DNA from: a virus
Reading direction: 5' to 3' (one strand)
IMG/VR virus record: IMGVR_UViG_3300046791_000258
Location: 1-64,000 of that record
DNA: 64,000 nt
Position 1 is the first letter of the stretch. The number at the start of each line of letters is the position of its first letter. Below are positions 5,974-56,935 of the stretch, piece by piece. The position numbers and the translations under genes are program-made. Under the pieces are notes generated by a model. It had not been told where the DNA came from. It worked only from the letters and a program-made list of their open reading frames with translations, and made no database searches.

Positions 5974-6705
5974 ATGTCGAACGGCAAGAACGGCAACAAG
6001 ATCCCTCCTGGTGTCCCCAACCCAGGCGGCAGCGATCTCAGTCAGCCAACCGCCGATGAGGCGACCATGAGCGAGGCGCAGCGGCGCGCCGACGAGATGC
6101 GGTCCCTGGTCGAGCAGGATCTCGGTCGAGACCGCGACGAGCGCTTTCGCCTGGACGACAAGGACGGCCGCGACGAAGACCTCGACATGGCGCGCGGTGG
6201 CGAGCGGGCCTACAGCCGCGACCAGTGGGATCGCTCGATGGTGCCGACCGACCCCGAGCGCCGGCGCCTGATCCAGTCGCGCTTCCGCGACAGCGTGCTG
6301 CCCAACTTGCCCAAGCGCGAGGGCTGGCGCCGCTGCTGGGTCTCGACGACCCACAACTACGACACGCCGCAGTTCCGCATCGGCATCGGCTATCACTTCT
6401 GCACCTACGAGCAGCTCGCCCAGGAGGGTTGGTCGGCCGACGCCTACGCGGTCAAGGACAGCCGCAACGTCTACTCGGGCTGCGTGATGTGGCGCGAGAT
6501 GATCGCCATGGAGACCGACGAAAAGAATTGGTACACGATCATGCGCGAGCTCCACCACGATCAGCCCTACGAGCTGTCCAGGGGCATCTACGACACGCTG
6601 GACGCAGCGGGCGAACGGGTGCGTGATGCGGGTGGTCGAACCTCGATGGCCCCAGGCATGGAGCAGCTGCGCACCTACACACGGCCGCCGAAACAGTTCG
6701 ACTGA
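5974..6705 (+). CDS. Hypothetical head-region protein (243 aa)
   Basis: Begins two bases after the scaffold-like gene. The N-terminal 80 residues are charged and probably disordered; the rest is a compact domain rich in aromatics (YHFCTYEQLAQEGWSADAY, MWREMIAMETDEKNWYTIM). Not recognised. Codon use matches its neighbours. Probably a virion or assembly protein by location. Confidence 0.6.
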   Translation: MSNGKNGNKIPPGVPNPGGSDLSQPTADEATMSEAQRRADEMRSLVEQDLGRDRDERFRLDDKDGRDEDLDMARGGERAYSRDQWDRSMVPTDPERRRLIQSRFRDSVLPNLPKREGWRRCWVSTTHNYDTPQFRIGIGYHFCTYEQLAQEGWSADAYAVKDSRNVYSGCVMWREMIAMETDEKNWYTIMRELHHDQPYELSRGIYDTLDAAGERVRDAGGRTSMAPGMEQLRTYTRPPKQFD

Positions 6706-52588: not shown

Positions 52589-53407
52589 ATGCAGATCAAG
52601 ATCACCCCGGCTATCCAACAGCTCATCGACGACGGCGCCCTGTTCGCCATTAATCACAGCGGTGGCAAGGACAGCCAAGCGATGGCGATCGAGCTGGAGA
52701 AGATCATCCCCAAGGCGCAGCTGGTCTACGTGCACGCTGACCTGGGCCGCATCGAGTATGAGGGCACGCTGGCTCATGCCAAGGCCCAGGCCGATGCCGC
52801 CGGCATCCCCTTCCTGGTCGCCAATGCGGTCTACAAGGATGGCAAGGCCAAGACGTTCTTCAATTATGCCGAGCATCGCAAGGAAGTGAACCCGACCGCC
52901 CCGAGCTTCCCCTCGGCCAACGACGCGCGGTGGTGCACCAGCGAGCTCAAGCGCGATCCGATCAACCGCGTGCTGCGCCAGTACGCCAACAAGCACGGCT
53001 TCAAGGCGATCGTGAGCTGCCAGGGCATCCGCGCCCAGGAGAGCACGAGCCGCTCGAAGAAGCAGCCCTGGGCGGTCGAGGATCGCCTGGACTGCGCCAA
53101 GCGCGCCGGCTTCGTGTGGTACCCGATCTTCGAGATGTCGGTCGCCCAGGTGAAGGCGGTGGTGGCCGAGGCCGGCCAGCAGCTGCACCCGGCATACGCC
53201 GCGGGCAATGATCGGCTGAGCTGCGTGTTCTGCATCATGGCCAGCGACAACGACATCCTGAACGGCGCCCTGGCCCGCCCCGAGCTGCTGGCCGAGTACA
53301 TCGCCCTCGAAGAGAAGCTTGGCTACACCATGCACGTCAGCCGTCGCAGCCTGGGACAGATCGTGGCCGACGCCCAGGCGGCCGCGGAGCTGCCGATGGC
53401 AGCCTAG
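52589..53407 (+). CDS. PAPS reductase-type (adenine nucleotide alpha-hydrolase) protein
   Basis: 272 residues, start by cassette ACGGAGACTTCCCATG. INHSGGKDSQAMAIEL (about 21-36) is the PP-loop of the PAPS-reductase/DndC/tRNA-sulfur superfamily; VYVHADLGRIEYEGT follows as in PAPS reductases. CTSELKRDPINR, GIRAQES and a CVFCIMAS cysteine pair (about 212) complete the family pattern. In phages such proteins are common; proposals include nucleotide or DNA/RNA sulfur modification. It has its own promoter and appears to be a single-gene unit. Substrate unknown. Confidence 0.75.
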   Translation: MQIKITPAIQQLIDDGALFAINHSGGKDSQAMAIELEKIIPKAQLVYVHADLGRIEYEGTLAHAKAQADAAGIPFLVANAVYKDGKAKTFFNYAEHRKEVNPTAPSFPSANDARWCTSELKRDPINRVLRQYANKHGFKAIVSCQGIRAQESTSRSKKQPWAVEDRLDCAKRAGFVWYPIFEMSVAQVKAVVAEAGQQLHPAYAAGNDRLSCVFCIMASDNDILNGALARPELLAEYIALEEKLGYTMHVSRRSLGQIVADAQAAAELPMAA

Positions 53408-55179: not shown

Positions 55180-55334
55180 GGCAACGCACCGGCCCGCTGC
55201 CGTATGGCCGGCCGGGCAAGCAGCTTGGCGACTGCCGCTACAGTTACGACGGCGGCTGTGCGCGCTACCCGGTCTGTCCCGACGAGGTCTGTGACCCCGC
55301 GAACTACGACGAGCTTCATCCCCCAGGAGGAACC

Positions 55335-55679
55335 ATGACCGAGTCCGAATCATTGAAGGCGACCGAGAAGCTGGGCAGCGCCGGCGCCACCCATCCGCGG
55401 ATCACGCTTGACTACATCAAGGGCCAGATCAGGAGCGTGGCTTATGGTCCGGCGTCGATCGGCATGCACCGCGAGCACGCGAGCCCGCATCTCGATGCGA
55501 TGACCTTGTGCAAGATGGAGCTGCAGTCGGGCTTCGTGGTGATTGGCAAGAGCGCACCGCTCAGCCCCGAGAACTTCGACCGCGCCAAGGGCGAGGTGTT
55601 CGCCTACGAGGACTGCATCCGACAGTTGTGGCCGATGTTTGCCTTCCACCAGCTCCAGGCGAAGTACGAGGCCGACTGA
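55335..55679 (+). CDS. Phage gp49_66-family protein (114 aa; longer form possible from GTG 55176)
   Basis: ATG 55335 follows AGGAGGAACC, the strongest ribosome site in the area. The domain reads HPRITLDYIKGQIRSVAY, then MELQSGFVVIGKSAPLSPEN and FDRAKGEVFAYEDCIRQLW, matching the family known as gp49/gp66, of unknown function. The frame is open upstream to GTG 55176, which overlaps the previous stop. The 53-residue extension is Cys-rich (CRYSYDGGCARYPVCPDEVC). Both forms could be made. Confidence 0.65.
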   Translation: MTESESLKATEKLGSAGATHPRITLDYIKGQIRSVAYGPASIGMHREHASPHLDAMTLCKMELQSGFVVIGKSAPLSPENFDRAKGEVFAYEDCIRQLWPMFAFHQLQAKYEAD

Positions 55680-55924
55680 TGGCCGACATCGGCTGGGCGA
55701 TCAAGCATCTGCGCAAGGGCGAGCTGGTTCGCCGCGCCGGGTGGAACGGTGTGGAGGCCGGCCGGCCGATGTGGCTTGAGCTCCAGGAGCCCGACTCTAA
55801 ATCCAAGATGAGTCTGCCCTACGTGTTCCTGACGGTCGGCAAGGGGGTCACGTTCGCCAGCCGTATACCGTGGACCTGTTCGCAGTACGACCTGCTGGCG
55901 ACCGACTGGGAGATCGCCAAGTGA
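55679..55924 (+). CDS. tad2: DUF2829 protein, Tad2-like anti-Thoeris candidate
   Basis: 81 residues, start ATG 55679. IGWAIKHLRKGELVRRAGWN, then MWLELQEPD, LPYVFLTV, and the end PWTCSQYDLLATDWEIA match DUF2829 along its whole length. DUF2829 proteins include Tad2, which soaks up the cyclic ADP-ribose-type signal of the bacterial Thoeris defence. That function is established for other homologues, and here it is inferred from family alone. It sits in a run of small genes coupled by overlaps. Confidence 0.75.
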   Translation: MADIGWAIKHLRKGELVRRAGWNGVEAGRPMWLELQEPDSKSKMSLPYVFLTVGKGVTFASRIPWTCSQYDLLATDWEIAK

Positions 55925-56013
55925 AGCGGGCGCGTCACTGGGCCGAGACCATCGTGGTCGTGGTGCTGCTCGTGATGACGGCGTACATGATCAGCACGCT
56001 GGTGTTCACGTGA
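55921..56013 (+). CDS. Micro membrane protein (30 aa)
   Basis: GTG start overlapping the DUF2829 stop, TGA overlapping the next GTG. Basic N-terminus, then the single hydrophobic helix TIVVVVLLVMTAYMISTLVF. Overlaps on both sides argue for a real gene. Confidence 0.45.
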   Translation: MKRARHWAETIVVVVLLVMTAYMISTLVFT

Positions 56014-56300
56014 GCCTCGCCTTCACGCTGATCGACAAGAACAAGTCGCGCAAGTTCAAGCACGCGGGCTACGTCCAGCCGGTCCAGGATCGCTACGGCC
56101 TGCTGACCATGAAGCCGGGCGAGACCAAGTCGGTGCACGAGGAGAACGAGCGCGAGCGGATCGAGTACCGGCGCTGGGCCATCGTCAACTCGGGCACCTA
56201 CTACCGCAAGACCGGGCGCACGACGCATCGCTTCTACACGCTGGTTGATCGCAATGGCGCGCGCGCCACCATCACCTATGGCATCAGGAGCGGCGCGTGA
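56010..56300 (+). CDS. Hypothetical basic protein (96 aa)
   Basis: GTG start. Rich in Arg/Lys/Tyr with strand-like segments (RYGLLTMKPGETKSVHE, HRFYTLVDRNGARATITYG). Not recognised. Coupled on both sides. Confidence 0.55.
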   Translation: MSLAFTLIDKNKSRKFKHAGYVQPVQDRYGLLTMKPGETKSVHEENERERIEYRRWAIVNSGTYYRKTGRTTHRFYTLVDRNGARATITYGIRSGA

Positions 56301-56530: not shown

Positions 56531-56672
56531 GCGACGCTACGAGTGGCGACGACTCGGCGGCGACTACCCCAACCCGGTGCTTGAGCTGCTGTGGTTCGTG
56601 TTCCTGCTTGCCGGCGGCTTCGGCTTCACCATGTTGCTCGCCTACAGCTTGCAGAGGATGATGACGCAATGA
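56517..56672 (+). CDS. Small membrane protein (51 aa)
   Basis: ATG 56517 after GAGGGGAGTTTCC. Basic N-terminus (SRRERRYEWRR), one hydrophobic helix at about 21-45 (VLELLWFVFLLAGGFGFTML). Overlaps the next ATG. Positive-inside topology expected. Confidence 0.5.
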   Translation: MSRRERRYEWRRLGGDYPNPVLELLWFVFLLAGGFGFTMLLAYSLQRMMTQ

Positions 56673-56935
56673 CCGACGAGGTGATGCGCGACTGGGTGGC
56701 CGGCCACAACGACGAGGCGCTGCTCGCCGATGGCTTCGAGGCCGCGCTGATCGGTGTCGCCGAGCGCTGCAGCCAGCCGACGCTTGCGGTCTACGACGCC
56801 CAGAAGTGCGTCGAGATCCTGATGACCCGCGACGGCATGGACGCGACGGAGGCCTTGGAGTTCTTCACCTTCAACACGCTGGGCGCCTGGGTTGGTCCGA
56901 TGACGCCGTTGTTCCTGTGGCGCTACGAAGCGTGA
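56669..56935 (+). CDS. Hypothetical acidic protein (88 aa)
   Basis: Start ATG 56669. Helical with GMDATEALEFFTFNTLGAWV, typical of a short conserved phage protein whose function is not known to me. Coupled on both sides. Confidence 0.55.
   Translation: MTDEVMRDWVAGHNDEALLADGFEAALIGVAERCSQPTLAVYDAQKCVEILMTRDGMDATEALEFFTFNTLGAWVGPMTPLFLWRYEA

Follow-up and report, generated by a model that had tools for sequence, protein, structure and literature searches.

The stretch of viral DNA analysed here (the window; positions 1 to 64,000 of IMG/VR virus record IMGVR_UViG_3300046791_000258) carries two overlapping genes whose products belong to two families of immune-signal sponges. The downstream gene encodes a relative of Tad2. 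The upstream gene, which the preliminary description left unnamed, encodes a protein that sequence and model place in the Acb4 family, and the most valuable point of the analysis lies there, one gene to the left of the Tad2-like gene. Because a Tad2 relative and an Acb4 relative adjoin in one phage, the pair can be read as a coupled two-gene cassette, in which the Acb4-like protein probably traps the cyclic dinucleotides of CBASS and the Tad2-like protein a TIR/Thoeris-type ADP-ribose signal. Family membership, gene overlap, and recurrent adjacency and fusion of the two families across unrelated phages are established here, as are the two folds at the level of predicted models. Each of the two proteins adds a member to an already known sponge family, and no report of a coupled or fused double sponge was found in the searchable literature, which was limited. 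The features of the locus are given in Table 1.

Table 1. Features of the Acb4-like and Tad2-like gene pair and its surroundings (window coordinates).
Feature	Positions	Strand	Remarks
Shine-Dalgarno AGGAGG of Acb4-like gene	55325..55330	+	4 nt before ATG
Acb4-like gene (PF13876, Phage_gp49_66)	55335..55679	+	114 aa; predicted CBASS cyclic dinucleotide sponge; stop TGA 55677-55679
GAGG, Shine-Dalgarno-like, in end of Acb4-like gene	55668..55671	+	7 nt before Tad2-like ATG
TGATG, Acb4-like stop overlapping Tad2-like start by 1 nt	55677..55681	+	translational coupling inferred
Tad2-like gene (PF11195, formerly DUF2829)	55679..55924	+	81 aa; predicted to trap an immune signal, an ADP-ribose-type or related nucleotide
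VEAG insertion, codons 25-28 (V25-E26-A27-G28)	55751..55762	+	in loop beta1-beta2, part of the Tad2 ligand pocket
Tyr codon 70 (SQYD; family SQ[T/S]D)	55886..55888	+	pocket position
Coupled 30-aa ORF	55921..56013	+	a single membrane-spanning stretch predicted by eye; GTGA overlap at each end

Identity and fold of the Tad2-like protein

The 81-residue product had been described as matching DUF2829 from end to end, and this holds to near full length. Pfam family PF11195.14 ('Tad2-like') matches it at E 8.6e-16 and 58.7 bits (cut-off 25) over profile positions 2-72 of 73 (71/73), a score that rules out a chance match of this open reading frame. Both motifs pointed out in the preliminary description, RRAGWN and the terminal SQYDLLATDWE, are present. 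A six-frame search across the entire 68.6-kb virus record gave no second copy of the family. Relatives in genome contigs had to be sought with a profile, as a single-sequence query found none. A profile built from 14 Tad2-like relatives, of which SPO1 Tad2 is itself one row, retrieves every solved Tad2 in the PDB: SPO1 gp34.65 (1.3e-27), SptTad2, HgmTad2/AcrIIA7 and the Tad2 of M. odoratus.

The AlphaFold model of the protein has a pLDDT of 88.8 (64-sequence alignment). In a single-chain fold search, its 20 best PDB matches are all Tad2 structures from SPO1 or M. odoratus (E 5e-5 to 6e-4, probability 1.00, TM on query 0.67-0.76), and the first match outside Tad2 appears at E 0.2. Structure prediction, which had been proposed as a check on the identification, leaves solved Tad2 structures as the sole strong matches. 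The view that the product is a true Tad2 relative, in family and in predicted fold, is well supported. By analogy with Tad2, the protein is predicted to assemble as a homotetramer, in which two ligand pockets would lie between protomers.

Comparison with characterised members places the protein at some distance from each of them. SPO1 Tad2 (gp34.65; PDB 8sme/8smf/8smg) is likewise a small phage protein, with the same fold (TM 0.7-0.76), the RxGWN block and the W..SQ-D-LA-DW ending, whereas identity is only about 30%; the window protein is without some 13 SPO1 residues between beta2 and the next strands, and adds VEAG in loop beta1-beta2 as well as the SQYD variant. Similarly, MoTad2 of a Myroides odoratus prophage (PDB 8v3e, 9eib) shares the fold and core motif at about 30% identity, but differs in the beta2-beta3 region. 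HgmTad2, SptTad2 and AcrIIA7 (PDB 8kbi, 8wjd, 9kzr) are the best single-sequence PDB matches, by virtue of the N-terminal block, but they carry an insertion of 20-30 residues, used for cyclic dinucleotides, that the window protein does not have.

The upstream Acb4-like gene

A 2024 preprint identified PF13876, named 'N4 Gp49/Sf6 gene 66' in Pfam, as the Acb4 family, and described SPO1 Acb4 as a tetrameric sponge for 3'3'-cGAMP; all eight of the diverse homologues tested by its authors bound the same molecule (PMC11722364). The upstream product scores 48.4 bits against this family (cut-off 27). A profile made from the window protein and three relatives matched Acb4 (9e4w) alone in the PDB, at E 5e-6. 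The AlphaFold model has a pLDDT of 89.3, and its top 13 PDB fold matches are all chains of 9e4w (probability 1.00, E 3e-3 to 6e-3, TM-target 0.63-0.74).

SPO1 Acb4 (gp1.3) has the same fold as the window protein and the same conserved core, GF.V.G.SA..SPENF, whereas identity over the fold alignment is 18%, several pocket side chains are lost, and the C-terminal helix has diverged. When mapped by hand, the pocket residues F48 and F62 of SPO1 each align with a conserved Phe of the window protein, while E49, V56, Y57, I66, T70 and K81 become V, P, L, K, F and P, respectively. These losses are not decisive, since eight diverse homologues all bind 3'3'-cGAMP and E49 is not retained in the PF13876 family consensus either. 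Further departures at positions conserved in >90% of the family (for example N65S, L101M, L106Q and L110K) lie mostly in the C-terminal helix. By sequence and model, the upstream gene product is a divergent member of the Acb4 family and a predicted anti-CBASS sponge.

Pocket residues and the question of the ligand

The ligand pocket of SPO1 Tad2 is built from two protomers: one contributes loop beta1-beta2, loop beta3-beta4 and strand beta4, and the second loop beta1-beta2, loop beta4-alpha3 and helix alpha3 (review, PMC12043709). Among 231 distinct homologues, R19, W22, W65, S68, D71, L73, D76 and W77 are conserved at about 100%, and N23 and Q69 at 98%; the window protein keeps all of them, together with the near-invariant G21. 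Most of these residues fall in loop beta1-beta2, loop beta4-alpha3 and alpha3, that is, in elements that line the pocket.

The comparison with Tad2 pocket residues suggested in the preliminary description had a divided outcome: the invariant residues are retained, but the VEAG insertion and Y70 depart at pocket positions. The insertion lengthens loop beta1-beta2 by four residues, in columns with an occupancy of about zero in the 231 homologues. Position 70 is T in 86% of these homologues and Y in the window protein only. As far as these alignments indicate, both changes are essentially private to the window protein and lie at published pocket positions.

Known Tad2 proteins trap different molecules, and therefore the ligand is not readable from the protein sequence. 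SPO1 Tad2 binds gcADPR (PMC12043709), MoTad2 binds His-ADPR (PMC13299392; PDB 9eib), and HgmTad2 and SptTad2 also bind cyclic dinucleotides, via an insertion between beta2 and beta5 (PMC12043709). In the alignments, the window protein has no long beta2-beta5 insertion of the HgmTad2 kind; in its place, it carries the PDxxSKMxLPY block of what we term the SKM-type subgroup, whose motif occurs in 189 of the 266 Tad2-like domains retrieved. When four characterised Tad2s were placed in a tree with 194 Tad2-like proteins, none of the four fell in the neighbourhood of this subgroup, although support for the 81-residue protein is weak, and too weak for fine claims.

The product is a predicted Tad2-like sponge. 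The preliminary interpretation is partly supported: family and fold are borne out, whereas a strict anti-Thoeris role, with gcADPR, the type I signal, as ligand, is only a possible one. The chances are close to even, if somewhat lower, that the protein is instead a sponge for a signal other than that of type I Thoeris, such as the type II Thoeris signal His-ADPR, a cyclic dinucleotide or an undescribed molecule. Such a specificity would accord with the differing ligands of the characterised members, with the PDxxSKMxLPY block and its subgroup neighbourhood empty of characterised Tad2s, and with the unique changes in two pocket elements. It sits less easily with the retention of the invariant pocket residues, and the subgroup tree that helps to suggest it is weakly supported.

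Both window proteins are, by their sequences, divergent members of their families, and this is a point against the cassette reading. Unique substitutions in both, at positions otherwise >85-90% conserved, could even mark the two genes as relics that no longer bind a signal. We consider such decay unlikely, as neither ORF is broken, each is preceded by a good ribosome-binding site, and the two overlap in the manner of coupled genes; moreover, the invariant cores are retained and both models fold with high confidence.

Recurrence of the gene pair

To place the pair in a wider context, relatives of each protein were fetched and all flanks were searched with profiles of both families. Viral loci fetched with the Tad2 query hold Acb4 in 6 of 82 cases, always at ≤412 bp and on the same strand. 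With the Acb4 query, Tad2 was found in 5 of 80 viral loci, on the same strand and within 1 kb in all five, and within 500 bp in three. Bacterial loci fetched with the Tad2 query (16-kb windows) hold Acb4 in 8 of 80, of which seven are within 500 bp on the same strand; these seven are from Dyella, Ruminococcus, Variovorax, Pseudomonas, Methylobacterium, Acidobacteriaceae and a proteobacterial MAG. Viral loci fetched with a fusion query, a set picked for carrying both families, have the pair in 10 of 80, with 9 of the 10 within 500 bp on the same strand. Random placement would be expected to give 0.3-0.75 pairs within 500 bp per set. The P values against it, which count a few near-identical loci as independent, are 1e-7 (viral, Tad2 query), 2e-9 (bacterial, Tad2 query), 6e-10 (viral, fusion query) and 2e-3 (viral, Acb4 query).

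The pair is recurrent, but not obligatory. No Acb4 lies within 6 kb in 76 of the 82 loci of the closest Tad2-like relatives, although many of these contigs end early. Loci with both families nearly always have them side by side on one strand, and this holds for bacterial genomes as well as for viral contigs. Either gene order is found, and intergenic gaps vary. A draw of 295 genomes of the Lelliottia family includes 15 that are Tad2-positive; PF13876 is present anywhere in two of these, and lies beside Tad2 in both.

The closest parallel to the window pair in a classic laboratory phage is found in N4, where gp48 (PF13876) is followed by gp49 (PF11195) with the same 1-nt start-stop overlap, the difference being an extra N-terminal domain on N4 gp49 (see below). 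The pair is also present in Klebsiella phage KP8, Escherichia phage Huey, Shigella phage Moonfish and an uncultured siphovirus (MW202545). No function of N4 gp48-gp49 is reported in the searchable literature, which was limited; within the same bounds, the pairing itself is unreported, and the only texts found to name both families, the Acb4 preprint and one review, do not pair them in the parts available. Two points concern nomenclature. PF13876 is named after 'N4 Gp49', yet in the N4 record (NC_008720) gp48 is the PF13876 protein and gp49 the Tad2-like one. In addition, the Acb4-family and Tad2-like genes of Huey (PQ850609) and phi1_146050 (PP889499) are labelled 'anti-CRISPR protein', which is probably misleading.

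Fusions, linkers and repeats

The two families also occur within single ORFs. Fusions in which both Pfam domains exceed their cut-offs were found in a Ruminococcus MAG (L200), an Enterobacteriaceae genome of the Lelliottia family (L259), Pasteurella phage Pmp13 (gp45; L343) and three viral contigs (L263, L268, L320), and four further loci (L264-L267) hold near relatives of the fusion ORFs, found with the profiles built in this analysis. Most fusions carry an SKM-type Tad2. The linkers take at least three forms, being short in some, about 95 aa in L259, and occupied in L320 by an uncharacterised domain, here called YIGTK. Linkers of such different kinds suggest more than one fusion event.

Adjacency could simply reflect the gathering of small accessory genes in one phage region, with no joint action of the two proteins. 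Both gene orders and varying gaps are what anti-defence islands show, and SPO1 has both genes under names from different series (gp1.3 and gp34.65), these distant numbers contrasting with the overlap of the window genes. We regard this explanation as less likely than not, given that single-ORF fusions exist with at least three linker forms and that same-strand proximity is far above random placement. Inhibition of Cas9, as first reported for the DUF2829 protein AcrIIA7, is a very improbable function for the Tad2-like protein. It is true that the family includes PDB 8kbi ('Inhibitor of Type II CRISPR-Cas system', HgmTad2) and 9kzr (AcrIIA7), and that several phage records label such genes anti-CRISPR. 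However, relatives of like kind are nucleotide-signal sponges (PMC12043709), and pairing or fusion with Acb4, itself a signal sponge, better fits signal sequestration.

The YIGTK domain comprises 45-75 aa with the motif YIGxK...EGY.VEY.D...GYxSWSPK..F...Y, is absent from Pfam and has no PDB relative by profile. It is N-terminal on many Tad2-like proteins (L344:2743-3225, which is N4 gp49; L012:2252-2746; L014:2270-2770; L345:3384-3848), separates Acb4 from Tad2 in the L320 fusion and precedes Acb4 in that of L268, and is joined to Acb4 alone in phrog_9467. It is a candidate third module of signal-sponge systems.

Tad2-like domains may also be multiplied. In some phages, a pair of Tad2-like domains or genes lies less than 1 kb apart (L045:5396-5602 and 6010-6216; L016:1996-2220 and 2495-2746), perhaps as sponges for two different signals. 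A 478-aa frame in a Lelliottia-family genome (G179; L261:1265-2698) contains three tandem Tad2-like repeats, and the same set of bacterial genomes has several long ORFs, about 250-290 aa in length, that include Tad2.

Proposed mechanism and significance

In the cassette reading, we infer that one transcript would yield both proteins, their amounts being coupled. Tetramers of the Acb4-like protein would trap the cyclic dinucleotide signals of CBASS, and tetramers of the Tad2-like protein a TIR/Thoeris-type ADP-ribose signal, presumably of the gcADPR or His-ADPR class. The alarm molecules would be sequestered rather than degraded during infection, and the suicide effectors of two immune systems would stay off, which would protect the phage.

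A broader proposal is more speculative, and we rate it as rather improbable. It holds that a composite module of Acb4 and Tad2, coupled or fused, jointly blocks both signals in phages of Proteobacteria and Firmicutes, including N4, and that its SKM-type Tad2 subgroup, which includes the window protein, has as ligand a signal distinct from those of known Tad2s.

That an anti-CBASS sponge and an anti-Thoeris-type sponge are repeatedly coupled or fused would imply that phages often face the two defences at once, and counter both by means of a single transcript or protein. The pairing makes a direct test possible in N4, through gp48-gp49. It also offers a guilt-by-association rule for finding more signal sponges, an example being the YIGTK domain, which is fused to both families.

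Gene neighbourhood and phage context

The preliminary description placed the Tad2-like gene within a run of small coupled genes, which it regarded as a possible anti-defence island. The run is real, with overlaps of 1 nt (TGATG) and 4 nt (GTGA); the 30-aa ORF and the next one (56010-56300) each overlap their upstream neighbour by 4 nt, and more small ORFs lie beyond. The island reading finds partial support in the Acb4-family gene directly upstream. The other small coupled genes at 54.0-58.2 kb have no informative match in Pfam or PHROG; NCBIfam likewise yielded no hit, either to the pair or to those small neighbours that were compared with it, and the 30-aa ORF has no PHROG match. The one strong PHROG match besides the pair, that of 56669-56935 to PHROG 13182, is to a family of unknown function, and the suggestion that all neighbours at 54.9-57.4 kb are anti-defence genes is unsupported.

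No near phage was found at the DNA level for the 49-64 kb region in the annotated phage collection. The terminase is about 46% identical to those of Caulobacter phages GB2A, RLK and KcrB, which are the nearest, and a host named from this likeness would be only a guess. In the terminase region of these three phages, no annotation refers to Tad2 or to the gp49 family. The record is that of a tailed phage; its genes include those for a PolA-type polymerase and a helicase/primase-like protein, and one that is PAPS-reductase-like. The last of these, of PAPS-reductase or DndC-like sulfotransferase type, is located at window positions 52589-53407 (+), about 2 kb upstream of the pair; PAPS-reductase and DndC-like genes are common phage accessory genes.
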